This document shows, piece after piece, positions 49,237 through 58,149 of a stretch of DNA of 64,000 nucleotides. Positions within the stretch are counted from its first letter, which is position 1; every line of letters begins with the position of its first letter. Origin of the DNA: Synechococcus sp. CBW1107 (GTDB lineage Bacteria > Cyanobacteriota > Cyanobacteriia > PCC-6307 > Cyanobiaceae); contig NZ_CP064908.1 of NCBI RefSeq assembly GCF_015841355.1, positions 2,046,001 to 2,110,000 of the forward strand. The letters are read 5' to 3'. Below the pieces are notes generated by a model that searched no databases, had not been told where the DNA came from, and saw only the letters and a list, made by a program, of their open reading frames with translations. The translations under genes were made by a program, and so were the position numbers.

Positions 49237-49908
49237 ATGGCTACTCCTTCCTCCCAACGCCTCCTCTCGATGGCTCCTGCCACCAGCGCCACCGCGCTTG
49301 ATCAGCTGTTCGTCGATCTCGCGCATCCCAATCCCTACGTGCAGACCGAGGCCTTCCTGGCCATGGTCCGCCACCACTCCGAGGCTTCCCTGCCGCGTCT
49401 TATCCTCCTGCTCGATCATGAGGACGTTGTTCGACGGCGGGCTGCCGTGCGAGCCCTGGGTGCTTTCGGGGAGAAGGCGATGCTGCCGCTGGCACAGAAA
49501 TATCAGACCAGCTGCGATGGCACCGTTCGTGCCAGTTGCGTGAAGGCCTATGCCCAGATCGCCTCCAATCTCCCCGGCCTTCAATTCCATAGCGAGGCCA
49601 TGGCTGTCCTCAAGACCGCCCTGGATGACGAGTCCCCTGTGGTGGCCATTGCAGCAGTGATGGCCCTCGGCCAGGTAGGGGTACAGGCCCTTCCGCTGTT
49701 GATCCAAGTCTGCCGGGGAAGCAACGAGGCTCAAGCTGTGGCAGCGGTGAATGCCCTCGCCAACATCGATCATCCCGATGTTTCGATCTGCCTGACCCAG
49801 TTGGCAGCCTGTGAGGGCACCGACGCGTATGTACGGGAGTCTGTGTCCTCCGCACTGGTAAGGGTTGAGGATCTGCGTGGGCGTCAGCCTTCCTTGCTGT
49901 CCTCTTGA
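49237..49908 (+). CDS. cpeZ: HEAT-repeat phycoerythrin lyase/chaperone CpeZ
   Basis: A 223-residue E/F-clan protein with HEAT repeats (HPNPYVQTEAFLAMVRHHSE, EDVVRRRAAVRALGAFGEKA and three more). Size and place directly after cpeBA match CpeZ, which helps CpeY attach phycoerythrobilin to CpeA Cys82 and acts as a chaperone. The 3' end overlaps the convergent cpeF by 25 bp. A second ATG (residue 11) could also serve. Confidence 0.82.
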   Translation: MATPSSQRLLSMAPATSATALDQLFVDLAHPNPYVQTEAFLAMVRHHSEASLPRLILLLDHEDVVRRRAAVRALGAFGEKAMLPLAQKYQTSCDGTVRASCVKAYAQIASNLPGLQFHSEAMAVLKTALDDESPVVAIAAVMALGQVGVQALPLLIQVCRGSNEAQAVAAVNALANIDHPDVSICLTQLAACEGTDAYVRESVSSALVRVEDLRGRQPSLLSS

Positions 49909-50819
49909 TGCTGCCTCAGTTGCTGAATAGAGAGGTTCAGGATGGGTTTCACTTCAGGGCTGGCTTCGCTGCCTGCAGCTGACTCCAGATCTGGTAGGGC
50001 GTCAATCGCCCCTAGTTTCATCAGAGAGAGGGCCGTGTTCTTGCGCACCTGAGCCGAGTTGTCACCGAGCAAGGGTTTCAGTAAAGGAGTTGCCCAGGTC
50101 GGCTCGTGGAGTTTCCCGAGCAGGATGACGGCTTCGGCTCGTACGAGTTCAGCGGAATCGCCAAGAGCCTCGATCACCAGCTCTCGGGCTTCCTGGTCAT
50201 TGAGAGACTGAATTTGCTCACCAAGAGCAGCAATGGCTGCGATCCTCACCTCGGTGTGGGAGGACCGTGCGGCGCGTCGCAGGGCAGCGGGTGCCTGGGC
50301 GCCAACGAAGGCAAGCCCCCAACTGGCCAGGCCCAGATGCATGGAGCTACTCTCGCTGCTGGAGAGAACAGCAATGAGCGCATCCACGGCACACTCTCCG
50401 GTGGCGGCCATTGCGCCGACAGCCGATCCCTGCACCACTGGATCCCCATCGTTCAGCAGGGCATCAACCAGAACAGGCAGAGCTTCAGGATCAGCGATCA
50501 GAGTGAGGGTTTTCGCGGCTGCACGGCGAACCGTCACATTCTCATGGGTGCGCAGTGCGTGGCAGAGAGCCGGTACGGCTGCTGTGCCGATCGCACCAAG
50601 GCTTTCGGCGAACGTGAGACGCATCAGGCCACGTGGATCTCCCAGCCCTGCCACCATTTTTTCGATCAGAATCTCGTCGCCTTGGGGGCGTTCACCTGAA
50701 CGAAGTTGCTTCTTGAGATCTGCGGCCAGCATGGAGGCCTCTGACTCGCTGAGGAAGACGGCTGGAGGTGTGGCTGGAACGCCGGTGGGCTCGCTGCTCA
50801 AGGCTTCTGGGAGGAGCAT
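49884..50819 (-). CDS. cpeF: HEAT-repeat bilin lyase CpeF (MpeV-like)
   Basis: A 311-residue E/F-clan protein. ILIEKMVAGLGDPRGLMRLTFAESLG and VTVRRAAAKTLTLIADPEALPVLVDALLNDGDPVVQGSAVGA match my memory of CpeF/MpeV, the lyase for the doubly linked phycoerythrobilin of CpeB Cys50/61. About seven HEAT repeats span the protein. Divergent from the DUF2656 gene with 78 bp between. The exact bilin site is inferred from family. Confidence 0.75.
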   Translation of the reverse strand: MLLPEALSSEPTGVPATPPAVFLSESEASMLAADLKKQLRSGERPQGDEILIEKMVAGLGDPRGLMRLTFAESLGAIGTAAVPALCHALRTHENVTVRRAAAKTLTLIADPEALPVLVDALLNDGDPVVQGSAVGAMAATGECAVDALIAVLSSSESSSMHLGLASWGLAFVGAQAPAALRRAARSSHTEVRIAAIAALGEQIQSLNDQEARELVIEALGDSAELVRAEAVILLGKLHEPTWATPLLKPLLGDNSAQVRKNTALSLMKLGAIDALPDLESAAGSEASPEVKPILNLSIQQLRQHQEDSKEG

Positions 50820-50897
50820 GGGTCATTGTCTCAGCATGGAAGCCATCGTGGTGACTGGTGACGTGGCAAGTAACATGCCAAGCTTCCAAGCACTCCC

Positions 50898-51341
50898 ATG
50901 ACCACATTTCTGCTGTCCCACAACCTGCAGGTTCAGAGTGGATCTGTGCCGCCATGGGATGCCAAACAACTGGCTGAGGGGCTGCCGCTTCACTGCGCCA
51001 GCATCACCAAGGCCGAGGCTCTGTCCCATCCTCACTGGTTGATCAGGATCGAGAGCCCAGCAGACTCGACGGCGCTGGCCAGGGAACTCTTGAAGGGCTG
51101 GGCCTTGCTGCGGCAGCACCACGGACACGATACGAACCATACGATTCTGGCTCTGGGCGGCCGCAAGGACATGCCAGCTGCACCCGGATCTCCACTGGAG
51201 CTGGGTGCCTGGGGGGTTGACATCGTGGAGACGGTGGATGCCGATGCTTTTCTTGCGTCCATCAACTGGCAAGCCCTGAAGGCGGGCCGACCTGCCGATG
51301 GTGTCTTCGAGCTGCTGCTTGATCCTGCAGAGGGCTTGTGA
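50898..51341 (+). CDS. DUF2656 family protein
   Basis: A 147-residue cyanobacterial protein I match to DUF2656, found in phycobilisome gene regions. Typical stretches are TFLLSHNLQVQSGSVPPWDA, LALGGRKDMPAAPGSPLELG and GVDIVETVDADAFLASINW. No signal peptide or membrane helix. Function unknown. Confidence 0.72.
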   Translation: MTTFLLSHNLQVQSGSVPPWDAKQLAEGLPLHCASITKAEALSHPHWLIRIESPADSTALARELLKGWALLRQHHGHDTNHTILALGGRKDMPAAPGSPLELGAWGVDIVETVDADAFLASINWQALKAGRPADGVFELLLDPAEGL

Positions 51342-51371
51342 GTGGCCAGGGGCTCGCTTGAAGAGCCCCCC

Positions 51372-51626
51372 TCACCCCTTCTTGTTGCTGGCACGTTTAC
51401 GTGATGGCCTGTCCTCCGGGGTGTTCTCTGCGGCTGTGGGAGCAGAGTCCGAATGTTCGGCGATGGATGCGCCCACATGGGTGACGACGGCACCTTGCTG
51501 GTGGAGGCCATTCATCATGCTGCTGAGGCTTTGCAGTGGAATCCTCAGAACTCTGGTGGAGAGGCGTTGGGCAGTCTGCGGATAGGCCACGGTGACGACG
51601 AGTGCGTCGGTGAGAGATGGTCCCAT
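51372..51626 (-). CDS. Small protein with CpcD-like domain only
   Basis: An 84-residue protein whose central part, TVAYPQTAQRLSTRVLRIPL then QSLSSMMNGLHQQGAVVTHVG, follows the CpcD-domain pattern seen at the C-termini of the rod linkers in this window (e.g. VPFNKLSQTYKEIHREGGVIAS). It has no Pfam00427-type linker domain and a basic, disordered tail (RPSRKRASNKKG). Classical CpcD caps rod ends; this one is divergent from cpeY with about 150 bp between. Confidence 0.6.
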   Translation of the reverse strand: MGPSLTDALVVTVAYPQTAQRLSTRVLRIPLQSLSSMMNGLHQQGAVVTHVGASIAEHSDSAPTAAENTPEDRPSRKRASNKKG

Positions 51627-51777
51627 GGCATGTTGTGCGAGAGGATCGCATCATGCCGAAAAGTCTCGTTGGTTCCTCCTTTCGCAATGATCGTATACAA
51701 CACGCTTCTTTAGGGGACAAACCGGGGAAAGGGAACGCGTAAATGGGACAATGGAGTATCGCTAGATCTGGGTGACA

Positions 51778-53121
51778 ATGATGGGCGATTCCGGTCGCTT
51801 CAACAACCTCCATCCCGGCCTCAGTCACGATGAGGCATTGCGCATTCTTGCCTTGCCGGTGGAGCAGCTTGAGTCAGGCAGCGATCGCTACATGGCGGCA
51901 GCCCACATGATCAATTTTCCCGGTCAGCGTTCCGAGCAGGCATTGCTGAATCTACTTGATGACGACGACGACGACAGTCAACCCACTCGTTTGGCCAGGC
52001 GTAAGGCTGTGGAGGTGCTGGCGCGCCTTGGCTGTAAGGATGCCATTCCAAGCATCGGCAGTTGTCTCCTGAGTGAGGATCACTATCTGGTAGAAAATGC
52101 AGCGTGGGCCCTGCAACAACTGGGTTGCCGGGATCAACATATCCTGAACCAGATGATCATGTTGTTGTCAGATACCGGGCAGAACCGGCGCATACTGGCT
52201 CAGAGTCTGGCCGGCTTAGGGGTGATTGAGGCCCTTCCGGCGATCGAACTCCTTCAGGATGATGAAGTACCAGGAGTGCGTGGGGCTGCTCTGGCGGCCG
52301 TCGCCACCCTCTCGGGAAGCCATGAGAGAGTCAGTGAGCTGGCAGAGCACTTGTTTCTTGCCAACCAGATGGATCGACAGTCGGCGATCCAGGATGTGAT
52401 CAATTCCAGGGCCGCAGAGCTGCTTCCCCAGGTTCTGCAGGCGCCGGTCTCCTCAGTCTTTCGGCTTCGAGCTCTGCGGCTGCTTTGGCCGGAAGCTGAG
52501 CCACTTCATCAGGGCCTGTCGCTTCTGGAAACGCTGGATAGGTTGCTCTTGGATCAGCCGGAAGATGTCCAGGTTGTTCATCGCTATGACGAAGTACCAG
52601 AGATTTCCTTTCTGATCAATGAGTTGTTTGGTACCGACTTCAGTCGTTGCTATCTTGCTCTTCAAGCCGTGAGCACTCATTCTGGGATGTCACTCTGGCA
52701 TCTCCTAGAACAGCGTTGGCTGGAGGAAGCTCATAACGATTATGGAGCCCACTATTTCTTCCTGCGGCTGTTCGGGCGGATTGCAGGCTGGGGAGATGCG
52801 CAGGATAGAGTGGAGGACCTTTGTGAAAGCGCCATTCAAAATTATAGGCCACAATTTGTGAAGTCTCGTCCTGCCGCTATTCTCTCACTGTTGCGTTTAA
52901 ATCCTGAACGTCTGTCATCACATCTACCAGATTTGTTGGATGCGCAGGAGGAATCCAGTTGGGAGTGTAGATATACTGCCTTGATGGCTATGCAGGAATT
53001 AGTCAAGCAGGGATCCGTCAATGGCGTTTCCGGCTTAGCGGAAATGATCCTGAGTCCTGATCCTGATCTCTACGTAGAAAGCAAAAGAAAGCAAGTCCGT
53101 GCGCTACTGGCTGATCTCTGA
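51778..53121 (+). CDS. cpeY: HEAT-repeat phycoerythrin alpha lyase CpeY
   Basis: A 447-residue E/F-clan lyase. The N-terminal FNNLHPGLSHDEALRILALPVEQLESGSDRY region and the HRYDEVPEISFLINELFGTDFSRCYLAL and EEAHNDYGAHYFFLRLFGRIAG stretches are typical of CpeY. CpeY attaches phycoerythrobilin to CpeA Cys82, assisted by CpeZ. It ends 18 bp inside the convergent cpeR. The second half is lower in GC. Confidence 0.86.
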   Translation: MMGDSGRFNNLHPGLSHDEALRILALPVEQLESGSDRYMAAAHMINFPGQRSEQALLNLLDDDDDDSQPTRLARRKAVEVLARLGCKDAIPSIGSCLLSEDHYLVENAAWALQQLGCRDQHILNQMIMLLSDTGQNRRILAQSLAGLGVIEALPAIELLQDDEVPGVRGAALAAVATLSGSHERVSELAEHLFLANQMDRQSAIQDVINSRAAELLPQVLQAPVSSVFRLRALRLLWPEAEPLHQGLSLLETLDRLLLDQPEDVQVVHRYDEVPEISFLINELFGTDFSRCYLALQAVSTHSGMSLWHLLEQRWLEEAHNDYGAHYFFLRLFGRIAGWGDAQDRVEDLCESAIQNYRPQFVKSRPAAILSLLRLNPERLSSHLPDLLDAQEESSWECRYTALMAMQELVKQGSVNGVSGLAEMILSPDPDLYVESKRKQVRALLADL

Positions 53122-54856: not shown

Positions 54857-55603
54857 TTAATCATTTGTAACAGATACAATGGAACCTCCACGTCGCTGCA
54901 GGCTTTGCAGCGTTGAAGTGAGACTGCTAAACGGAACAATGGAGACCTGCACAGCCCTGCGGTTGAGTCCGCTAGGCGAGGCGGTAGTCCAGTTGATCCG
55001 AAAGCGTCTGTCATTCCGGTTCGTGCTGCCGCCTCTGCCGCCGCGAACGGCAACGGAAGGGGCGTCACCTGTGGCAAGACTGACCTGAAGCTTGGAAGAG
55101 GAGCTACCGTCAAAGGAAGCTTCTCCCCCCTTGAGTTTTAATGAACGCGTATAGGTGAGGTTGCTTTCCCCGGTTTGGGTATGAGTTGTGCGCCAGTAAG
55201 GCACCGTGTCGAAGCCGAAGGCTCCTATGTATTCCGGGGAGTAAACATAGCTGGCTATCTCGGCTTCATAGCCCTCGTTGGCTAAGCGTTGAACATGTTC
55301 GCTCACTTCGGCCTGATCGCGGGGAGCCCTTCCCAGCAGATGCTTGAAATTGAGCTCCACAAAGCGGTAGGGCCCATTCTTGTCGAGGAAGAGCCGGCGG
55401 TAGGTGTCTGAGCAGGCCAAGGCTGCAACCAGTCCCTGGACTGCGAGGTCCCCTTGGAGGAAGAGACTTTCAGCAGTTGATACCAGCTCCTCATCCATCA
55501 GATGGGCATTGCCGAAGACCTGGCGGTAGGCGGAGCGCAGCACCATCTGTGCATGGGCATAATCTTGCACTGAAGTTGTTGCTTGTCTGGTGATCACTGG
55601 CAT
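54857..55603 (-). CDS. Phycoerythrin rod linker, CpeD/CpeE type
   Basis: A 248-residue linker with one phycobilisome linker domain (about 15-150: LRSAYRQVFGNAHLMDEE, YRFVELNFKHLLGRAPRDQAEVSEH) and a C-terminal CpcD domain (about 190-247, RFRINWT to VPFSSLTSTLQSLQRRGGSIVS). Length fits CpeD or CpeE; I cannot separate these. It is the third linker of the operon, 88 bp after the fused linker. Confidence 0.88.
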   Translation of the reverse strand: MPVITRQATTSVQDYAHAQMVLRSAYRQVFGNAHLMDEELVSTAESLFLQGDLAVQGLVAALACSDTYRRLFLDKNGPYRFVELNFKHLLGRAPRDQAEVSEHVQRLANEGYEAEIASYVYSPEYIGAFGFDTVPYWRTTHTQTGESNLTYTRSLKLKGGEASFDGSSSSKLQVSLATGDAPSVAVRGGRGGSTNRNDRRFRINWTTASPSGLNRRAVQVSIVPFSSLTSTLQSLQRRGGSIVSVTND

Positions 55604-55691
55604 GGCAAAGAGAAAACAGTTGAAGTCAGGGGAGAGAAAGGAATGGACAGGTTGCTCAGCGAGCCAGCCGGGCAGACGGCCCCTGCTTGGA

Positions 55692-57221
55692 TCAGGCCAC
55701 TTCCGTGATTGAGACAATTCGGCCTCCACGGCGATGGATATAACCCAGCTGGGTCGTCATGTCCTTGCCGGATACCAAATAGCTGGCATTCGGGGTGCGC
55801 TGGCGCCCTCCAGCTGGTTGCGCTTGTACAACGATCCGATACCTTTTTGTGGTGGGATCGACAGAGCCGCTGAAGACACTCGAGCGATTGATCCGCACGG
55901 TTGTGTTGCTCCATCCGGCAGGGAGCGCTTTGGCCGCCAGTGAATTCACCAGACTTGAGGAATTCTGAATGGTGTCACTGCTTGAATATCCCGCCACCAG
56001 AGACAGTTGGCGATTGAATCCGATCTGCTCGCGGCCATTCTCCGTCTGGATACGGGGGAAGGGAACTGTATCTTCACCGAAGTACGTCTGATATTCGGTG
56101 CTATCGAGGTAGCTGCTGATGTCTGCCTCATAGCCTTTTTCAGCCAGCAGACGGATGTGTTCACTCACTTCCGCCTGGGAGTTTGGTGCGCGGCCGAGCA
56201 GGTGCTTGAAGTTGAGCTCTACGAAACGATAGGGAGCGTTGGATTCAAAAAAGCGGCGACGGTATTCCTGGGAGCAGGCAATGGAACGCACGAACTCACG
56301 GGTGCTCAGATAACCCTCGATGAACTTGCTTTCTGAGGTGAGCACGCGCTCGCTTTCCATCAGGTGAGGGTTACCCATCACCTGCCGGTAGGTGGCACGG
56401 ATCAGTGCCTGGATCTGGTCGGCAGTGTCTCCCTGGCAACGCTGGAAGACCTCCTGACTGCGCTGGCCAAGACCGAAGCCCACATACAGATCACCTCTCA
56501 GGCTTGTGCTATCACCGCCATCGCTGCTGTTGCGGCGCACAGGAGCGAAGGCTCCTCTACTGCTCATACCCGAGCCAGAAAGGCTTCTTCCGGACTGGGT
56601 AAGGTAAGCATGTGCCGGCAGACGAATGGTGATTGGCTGTCCCATTGCGAGGCTGGTCAGCAACTGGCTACGTGACCCCATTGCGTTATCGCTGCCAGCG
56701 AAGTTCTGCTCCAGCGAGGCGATGCGATTGAAGGACGACTGTGCTGCCCCTTCTGGGCTGTTCCAGGAACGGATATGCGGCGCCGTGTGTTCTCCGAAGG
56801 CCGAGGCGTACTCGTCGGAATCGATCAGGGCGTCGACATCCGCTTCGAAGCCTTCTTTGGCGACTATCGCTACGTGCGTGCCCACTTCAGCTTCGTCGAT
56901 GGGAGGACGCCCCAGCAGGTGCTTGATGGCCAGTTCAACCGAACGGTGAGGCGTAACTGCTTCGTAAAAGCGTGCACGATAGAAGGGTGACTTGGCCAGG
57001 CAGCGGACAAAATCGCGTACGGAGATTGTGCCGTTGCGTAGTTGCGATTCGGCAGCGTCAAGACGCTCGCTTTCCATGGGCATGGTGTTGCCGAACACAT
57101 GCCGGTAAGAGGCGCTGATCACGAGGTTGAGGCTCGTCTCATCGGCGCCGGGCTTGTAAGAAGCAGGTGCATCGAGGAGAGTGGTGGCACCAAAGCTCAG
57201 GGCTACGGACTGGGAAGACAT
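55692..57221 (-). CDS. Fused double-domain phycobilisome rod linker
   Basis: A 509-residue linker with two phycobilisome linker domains in tandem and one CpcD domain. Domain 1 spans about 28-160 (SASYRHVFGNTMPMESERLD, HRSVELAIKHLLGRPPIDEAE), domain 2 about 265-400 (RATYRQVMGNPHLMESERVL, YRFVELNFKHLLGRAPNSQAEVSEH), and the CpcD domain about 440-508 (YRIVVQAQPAG to IHRRGGRIVS). A Ser/Gly-rich spacer of roughly 70 residues separates the linker domains. Its second half resembles the adjacent CpeD/CpeE-type linker, so it may have arisen by fusion of neighbouring genes. Confidence 0.9.
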   Translation of the reverse strand: MSSQSVALSFGATTLLDAPASYKPGADETSLNLVISASYRHVFGNTMPMESERLDAAESQLRNGTISVRDFVRCLAKSPFYRARFYEAVTPHRSVELAIKHLLGRPPIDEAEVGTHVAIVAKEGFEADVDALIDSDEYASAFGEHTAPHIRSWNSPEGAAQSSFNRIASLEQNFAGSDNAMGSRSQLLTSLAMGQPITIRLPAHAYLTQSGRSLSGSGMSSRGAFAPVRRNSSDGGDSTSLRGDLYVGFGLGQRSQEVFQRCQGDTADQIQALIRATYRQVMGNPHLMESERVLTSESKFIEGYLSTREFVRSIACSQEYRRRFFESNAPYRFVELNFKHLLGRAPNSQAEVSEHIRLLAEKGYEADISSYLDSTEYQTYFGEDTVPFPRIQTENGREQIGFNRQLSLVAGYSSSDTIQNSSSLVNSLAAKALPAGWSNTTVRINRSSVFSGSVDPTTKRYRIVVQAQPAGGRQRTPNASYLVSGKDMTTQLGYIHRRGGRIVSITEVA

Positions 57222-57273
57222 GGTTTTGCAGTGGCGAGGGAGTCGGCAAAGAGAAAACAAAGTAGTCCGTTAA

Positions 57274-58149
57274 TTAGGCCGGAGTGATACTGGCAATCAC
57301 CCCTCCTTCACGGTGAATTTCCTTATAGGTTTGGGACAGTTTGTTAAAGGGGACGAAATAAGTCCGATTGGACTTTTTGTAGCGTGAAATCGGCCGAATT
57401 GAGTTGGCCCTGTAGGCCGTTACCTCAACCCGATAGATACGACCCTCCTGGCCGGCGCCGACGCCCAGTCGCGTTGCGGCGTCTTGGAAATTGGCAGAAG
57501 GCCTGAAGCTCCATCCTTGTGTATCCGTGGAGGAGGGAGGGACGACTGGGAGTGGGCGATTCACATAGACATTGCCACCTAGTCGTGCTGCCTTGCCGGA
57601 AAGATTGCCTTTGAAGCTACTGCTGCTGGCACCACGGAGCAGTTGGAAGCTCCAAGTGAATTCCTGCATGGTTTTGCAGCTTTCGGTCTTCCAGCCACGG
57701 TGGTAGGGGACTGTCCACTCACCGAAGGTGTCCTGATACTCCGTTGAATCTATGAAACTGTCGATATCCGCTTCATATCCTTTGCTATCGAGAAGTTCGG
57801 CATGGACGCGCATCTCGGCAAAGTCGGCTGGGGCCCGACCCAGGAGGTGGCGGAAGGCCAGCTCGATGTAGCGGTAGCGAGGGCAGGAATCAAAAAAACG
57901 AGCACGATACAGGTCACTTTTGGCAACGCTGCGTACGAACTCGCGCAGGCTCAGCTCCCCCAGCTTGAACTGGGATTCGGGGACCAGCTGCTGCTCGCTT
58001 TCCATCACATAGGAGTTTCCGAGAACCTGCCGGTACACGGCACGGATGAGCTGCTCTTTCTTGGCGTCCGTATCGTTTGGTAGCAGTTCAAGTGGGTCCT
58101 GGCTGTCAAACCGTTCGACGCCGAGGAGCGAGGCGGGACCAAAAGCCAT
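57274..58149 (-). CDS. cpeC: Phycoerythrin rod linker CpeC
   Basis: A 291-residue linker: MAFGPASLLGVERF start, linker domain about 30-165 (RAVYRQVLGNSYVMESEQ, YRYIELAFRHLLGRAPADFAEMRVH), then a CpcD domain about 228-290 (YRVEVTAYRANSIRPISRYKKS to IHREGGVIASITPA). This pattern matches CpeC of phycoerythrin rods. It is first in the operon with two further linkers, cpeS, cpeT and cpeR. Confidence 0.88.
   Translation of the reverse strand: MAFGPASLLGVERFDSQDPLELLPNDTDAKKEQLIRAVYRQVLGNSYVMESEQQLVPESQFKLGELSLREFVRSVAKSDLYRARFFDSCPRYRYIELAFRHLLGRAPADFAEMRVHAELLDSKGYEADIDSFIDSTEYQDTFGEWTVPYHRGWKTESCKTMQEFTWSFQLLRGASSSSFKGNLSGKAARLGGNVYVNRPLPVVPPSSTDTQGWSFRPSANFQDAATRLGVGAGQEGRIYRVEVTAYRANSIRPISRYKKSNRTYFVPFNKLSQTYKEIHREGGVIASITPA

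Follow-up and report, generated by a model that had tools for sequence, protein, structure and literature searches.

Two of the closest described systems to the locus examined here, CpcD and long-form FNR, act at the outer end of phycobilisome rods. According to the accessible portions of the published accounts, CpcD is the outermost rod linker and contacts CpcB (PMC9205905); CpcD caps rods, and FNR with a CpcD-like domain was bound at core-distal rod ends (PMC10696076). None of the phycoerythrin (PE)-containing strains in the accessible text of PMC2246261 has cpcC and cpcD homologues, and the gels of that study were unable to show ApcC or CpcD. The PE-I sub-region of marine Synechococcus also holds a gene named unk11, which adjoins unk12 (orf140) and is very variable in length and at its 3' end (PMC2246261, Six et al. 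2007). The Red Sea transcriptome of 2016 maps the unk11 transcription start site (TSS) of strain CC9605 to position 425184 on the reverse strand and ranks it, alongside those of cpeBA, mpeBA and rpcBA, with the cluster's most active start sites in the sea (PMC5069720). The accessible text of these two papers gives no domain or function for unk11; the subscription literature may hold an earlier assignment.

The original prediction described an 84-residue reading frame in Synechococcus sp. CBW1107, and we recovered it as described in the window, which is the whole stretch of 64,000 nucleotides that was analyzed (Table 1). This frame is very probably the unk11 of marine Synechococcus, based on its position and one coordinate match. 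In genome G215 the start codon of the orthologue lies at 425167 (-), 17 nt downstream of the CC9605 unk11 TSS, and from this match and the genome length we infer that G215 is CC9605. The place beside unk12 in the PE-I region and the variable 3' end both agree with the published unk11; unk12/orf140 itself is probably the DUF2656 gene, judging from size and place. Our analysis extends the published picture by a predicted CpcD fold and by a basic tail that is conserved, and it places orthologues beyond the marine strains. For cpeY, the NCBIfam CpeY model is the top match with 332 bits, the equivalog cut-off being 600 bits. The HEAT-repeat gene we take to be cpeZ-like, going by its position. The PE linker genes are found at 54857-58149 and the unk11 orthologue lies outside them, as had been predicted, 3.2 kb from the linker operon and on the same strand of the window. 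A 143-aa ORF (51397-51828) overlaps the orthologue on the same strand, and a cpcD-type gene adjoins cpcC in CBW1107, straddling the window end.

Table 1 Coordinates of the unk11 orthologue, its parts and its conserved neighbours in the window.
Feature	Position	Strand	Basis or remark
unk11 orthologue, 84 aa: CpcD-fold domain (predicted), tether, basic tail	51372..51626	-	ATG start
CpcD-like domain, residues 1-55, MGP start	51462..51626	-	AlphaFold2, hhalign, Foldseek, VIA-align
PF01383 match inside the unk11 orthologue	51474-51569	-	profile search of genome
Short acidic low-confidence tether, residues 56-69	51420..51461	-	pLDDT, charge count, alignment
Basic tail PEDRPSRKRASNKKG, residues 70-84, net +4	51375..51419	-	charge count
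DUF2656 protein, convergent neighbour	50898..51341	+	PF10847, 125.8 bits
cpeY, phycoerythrin alpha lyase, divergent neighbour	51772..53121	+	NCBIfam CpeY
HEAT-repeat protein, cpeZ-like, next conserved neighbour	49884..50819	-	profile match

The gene is not an isolated oddity: comparison with related picocyanobacterial regions showed that it occupies a conserved position. A search of 300 family genomes with the single protein gave matches in 27. In 25 of these the match is flanked by DUF2656 and cpeY; in the remaining two (G280, G211) it falls on FNR, in the CpcD-like domain at the N-terminus. We then used a profile of 38 orthologues (alignment A3) on the same genomes, scoring up to 16 candidates per genome and listing matches to E ~3e-6. 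Among the matches listed, an unk11 orthologue stands beside DUF2656, between it and cpeY, in 71 of the 81 DUF2656-bearing genomes. This placement used 72 matches and left out longer frames, which at 295-641 aa have the length of FNR; the sole short-frame match left out, in G286, is an FNR cut by the contig end. Alignment A3 omits the near copies L038, L039, L041, L059 and L060, as well as L045, which lacks an MG start. Orthologue starts were set at an MG codon, and the invariant MG start is partly our choice.

A scan for DUF2656 yielded 80 named loci, the best 80 of 173 confirmed. Using a 21-orthologue profile, to which some of these genomes had themselves contributed, we found unk11 at the expected place in 36 of the 40 loci L036-L075; L065 ends at a contig edge, L046 holds pieces, and L047 and L051 have none. 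No unk11 was found at the DUF2656-cpeY place in any of the 40 loci L076-L115. The ten DUF2656 genomes without a syntenic copy showed no unk11-like match elsewhere with all candidates scored. Eight of these (G002, G025, G083, G084, G128, G186, G266 and G272) have DUF2656 and a nearby cpeY with no recognizable gene between them; in G114 the region falls at a contig start and in G049 DUF2656 has no adjoining cpeY. The pieces in L046 (6449-6686, -) lie in different frames and represent either a decayed gene or an assembly error. DUF2656 occurs in 81 of the 300 family genomes, and other cyanobacteria likewise have it close to their PE genes; our literature search on DUF2656 found no paper.

It is hardly conceivable that the frame is a chance ORF, lying without function as a gene between a convergent and a divergent neighbour. 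Such a reading could draw on unk11 being un-annotated in CC9605, as far as the accessible text of PMC5069720 goes, and on a search of 50800-51900 that found no consensus promoter or terminator, although such a scan says little for cyanobacteria. It could also draw on pN/pS, which is 1.00 in one of four close pairs and 0.25-0.34 in the others, but with 4-8 differences this test is too thin to carry weight. Against it stand the synteny in 71 of 81 genomes, the conservation of predicted fold and tail, and a mapped TSS that precedes the start codon of the orthologue by 17 nt, and we rejected it on these grounds.

Similarity to CpcD is weak for the single protein but clear in the sequences of the family as a whole. 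PF01383 matched the protein alone with 15.5 bits (E 0.022), below its cut-off of 27 and from profile position 22 on. In a search of the genome the same frame scored 15.2 bits (E 0.094), but the threshold there, E 10, was permissive enough to give matches in 7 of 14 control genomes as well, and at E <= 0.001 PF01383 matched at unk11 in none of 20 sampled carrier genomes. Across the 38 members, in turn, PF01383 is the commonest Pfam match (15 members at E <= 1, best 5.4e-6), and hhalign aligned the family to ten CpcD-type domains with 95.3% and E 2.1e-8 over 43 columns. The PF01383 similarity expected by the original prediction thus holds for the family and not above cut-off for the single sequence; its stand-alone CpcD-like domain is borne out by hhalign and by the predicted fold. 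In a profile search of the PDB (E 0.026-1.1), six of nine matches, including the top four, fall on the C-terminal CpcD domain of CpcC rod linkers. On the target alone the Pfam family Nuc_recep-AF1 equals CpcD in score (15.7 bits); it was rejected, matching just 3 of the 38 members. NCBIfam and PHROGs searches gave nothing useful for the target.

A profile of the domain only was compared with 12 CpcD-type domains and with 2,400 shuffles, of which 2,303 were reported with a maximum of 12.5 bits. Nine of the 12 domains scored above this maximum: three from FNR (31.1, 25.3 and 20.6), CpeE (23.2), CpeC (22.5), two Pleurocapsales proteins (21.7 and 21.3), CpcD (21.6) and a CpcC-CpcD chimera (17.0). 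CpcC (11.2), CpeD (3.7) and ApcC (-0.1) fell below it. Two of the three FNR domains score best of all 12, a result favored by their having been found through the target; CBW1107's own FNR, with 20.6 bits, ranks eighth. The GG pair before the last strand is invariant in the ten aligned CpcD-type domains, where the target has QG; its single retained G is invariant in 21 orthologues and variable in 38. The chimeric CpcC-CpcD linker lies outside the rod cluster (G000:C1:466962-467099, L004), and a similar chimera is cpcCIII of WH5701, described in the accessible text of PMC2246261.

AlphaFold2 predicts a beta-beta-alpha-beta arrangement for residues 8-53, with strands at 8-18 and 21-30, a helix at 31-43 and a last strand at 47-53, which in the model corresponds to the fold of CpcD/ApcC. 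For residues 11-50 the pLDDT, taken in blocks of ten residues, is 80-90. It drops to 60 and then 43 in the two blocks of residues 51-70, which include the tether, and the model outside residues 11-50 is of low confidence (mean 69.4, pTM 0.49). Comparison of the model with known structures points in the same direction. Foldseek ranks 1-21 are all phycobilisome linkers or caps at weak E-values of 0.08 to 0.29. The same holds for VIA-align ranks 1-23 with Z 6.6-5.5, a level that proves little alone, and other folds appear from rank 24 on (Z <= 5.3).

The basic tail that had been noted in CBW1107 is present throughout the family. In all 29 dereplicated members (of the 38), on which the tail statistics were computed, the last 15 residues have a surplus of K/R over D/E of +3 to +8, with a mean of 6.21; 2,000 shuffles of residues 56 to the end reached a maximum of 2.83. 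The stretch between domain and tail has a mean charge of -0.86 (-3 for the target's tether) and the domain one of +3.59. Since the tail is basic in every one of them while total length varies from 84 to 143 residues, the basic end is conserved and the tether is not. Phycobilisome linkers are generally basic and seated in acidic phycobiliprotein discs. The classical-type CpcD of CBW1107 has no such basic tail, and a tail so conserved calls for a binding partner.

How does the protein compare with the known small CpcD domains? Like CpcD it is a small stand-alone domain, predicted as beta-beta-alpha-beta, in a phycobilisome gene cluster. Unlike CpcD it falls below the Pfam cut-off, keeps a single glycine of the GG pair and carries the basic tail, and its gene stands beside PE lyase genes and DUF2656 where classical CpcD stands beside cpcC/cpcBA in the PC operon. 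Long-form FNR (PetH) begins with a CpcD-like docking domain and continues in a flexible tether; unk11 has the same order, with a putative docking domain, but its tether leads to a basic tail and, at 84 aa, to no enzyme domain. A third comparison is offered by the Pleurocapsales-type PE linker operons (L079, L082, L095, L097 and L114), in which a CpcD domain likewise stands alone in a PE cluster. Four of these five small CpcD proteins have a basic tail too, and the earlier view that such a tail is unlike any known CpcD did not hold. All five are clear members of PF01383 (43.5-55.3 bits), whereas unk11 stays below the cut-off; these scores are the independent test, as the CpcD profile that found the proteins included two of them. 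Their genes lie between the linkers and cpeS, and the likeness to unk11 is one of build and does not imply kinship.

To relate unk11 to the antenna we used its occurrence. CpeB matched at E <= 1e-60 in 168 of the 300 genomes, and the 90 with E 6e-89 or better were, by our reading, of the phycobilisome type. Among the matches listed, 71 of these 90 have unk11, and all 71 placed genes are found there. The 19 without it comprise nine of genus g9, ten DUF2656-bearing genomes (G114 belonging to both) and G274, and showed no unk11-like match with all candidates scored. A full re-score of these 19 and G286 returned frames of at least 236 aa, the length of FNR or linkers, except in G286 (a 137-aa frame) and G049 (short partial CpcD/ApcC-type matches of 91 and 84 aa); G266 matched only with all candidates scored, in a frame of 433 aa. 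In a further 78 genomes the CpeB match is weaker; of these we chose 16 of high completeness, judged Prochlorococcus-like by size and PE. All 16 keep CpeB (E about 1e-72 to 1e-77) and CpeY, and they gave no DUF2656 and no CpcD domain over the cut-off, with one match of 14.2 bits in G039. When every candidate was scored, none of them matched the unk11 profile at E <= 0.1, whereas the same profile does match in the other genome searches. They have 0-1 linker domains, compared with 12-13 in four phycobilisome genomes. On this evidence unk11 follows the rods and not PE, CpeY or PE chromophore attachment.

At E <= 0.001, PF01383 matched an ApcC-like protein in all 20 sampled unk11 genomes; another PF01383 protein in a frame below 130 aa was found in G204 alone, and G092 has a 175-residue frame. 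G186 and G272 have neither unk11 nor a short CpcD-type protein besides the ApcC-like one. Since 19 of the 90 CpeB genomes, these two included, are without unk11, the gene is not essential, and it is dispensable in at least eight genomes with PE, DUF2656 and cpeY. A rule by which Unk11 replaces CpcD wherever CpcD is missing was rejected, as CBW1107 has both and G186 and G272 have neither. Stretches weakly similar to the PE alpha subunit (28-33% identity) were seen near DUF2656 in two genomes without unk11, at L148:5616-6017 (-) and L149:2297-2512 (+).

Judged by homology and occurrence, Unk11 most likely serves PE rods as a small linker at their end. We think it probable that Unk11 docks at the core-distal rod end and uses its tail as a second contact. 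The CpcD-fold domain would dock in the core-distal face of the terminal rod hexamer, like CpcD or the N-terminus of long-form FNR, and the docked protein would end or stabilize rods that contain PE. Through the flexible tether of variable length, the cationic C-terminus would make a further contact, electrostatic in nature; its simplest partners would be a neighboring linker or the acidic phycobiliprotein disc, at its surface or inner channel. Rod-end docking and capping are inferred here, as is what the tail binds. The capping proposed by the original prediction is thus plausible as a rod-end role by homology and occurrence, but the protein is not classical CpcD, whose cpcD-type gene adjoins cpcC; that CBW1107 also has this classical-type CpcD counts against a role as rod cap. 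The strong activity of the unk11 TSS fits a structural part, though transcription does not prove protein abundance, and we found no protein-level evidence for Unk11 in phycobilisomes. A role at the rod end would give a likely job to a long-unexplained gene of the light-harvesting cluster of red-pigmented picocyanobacteria and make Unk11 a candidate for how PE rods end in strains without CpcD.

The same docking could serve regulation. Free Unk11, not a fixed structural part, would compete with the CpcD C-termini of PE linkers or with FNR and so set the number of PE discs, controlling rod length or composition. The match of the domain-only profile to CpeE, CpeC and FNR domains, the short distance to the linker operon on the same strand and the strong TSS of its own in CC9605 (accessible text of PMC5069720) would suit this, yet expression like that of a structural gene fits a stoichiometric part at least equally; we hold regulation to be unlikely. 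The fixed place among lyase genes and DUF2656 could instead indicate an assembly factor in PE maturation, working with DUF2656, CpeY and CpeZ to hold apo-PE or pass chromophorylated PE to linkers and absent from the finished antenna. This we regard as rather unlikely, because all 16 Prochlorococcus-like genomes lack unk11, which is therefore not needed for PE with CpeY; these genomes lack DUF2656 as well, and eight PE genomes with DUF2656 and cpeY also do without unk11. The original prediction had further suggested that the tail binds nucleic acid or membrane. As an adaptor, the protein would sit with its domain on rods while the cationic tail grips either RNA or ribosomes or the anionic lipids of the thylakoid, and would so tie rods or sites of assembly to mRNA or membrane. 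The combination of docking domain, variable tether and a cationic end kept in all dereplicated members invites such a reading, as does the similar tail that four of the five small Pleurocapsales-type CpcD proteins carry. No result here points to RNA or lipid, however, and with linkers being generally basic and the unk11 domain itself positive on average, we consider an adaptor quite improbable. Tentatively, the rod-end linker might be extended to a two-ended organizer, a doubtful but possible arrangement in which the head plugs the outer end of a PE rod and the cationic hook reaches a second body through the tether. That body may be another rod or phycobilisome nearby, the anionic lipid of the thylakoid, or the mRNA and ribosomes making PE. 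If true, Unk11 would organize antenna packing or on-site assembly beyond capping and would represent a new class of phycobilisome organizer in abundant marine phototrophs.

Besides its syntenic copy, G147 has a second, unlinked unk11-like gene at L155:5413-5733 (-), with E 7.8e-20. It lies near ORFs resembling ruvC and chlI, named by eye, and its sequence resembles the type of another lineage. Finally, the intergenic region between cpeY and unk11 in CBW1107 contains TACGATCATTGCGA at 51682-51695 (-), which recurs in 15 of 157 loci, corresponding to six genomes. Five of these are near relatives and the sixth is the more distant G256, in which the remaining intergenic region has diverged, and TACGATCATTGCGA is a possible regulatory site.
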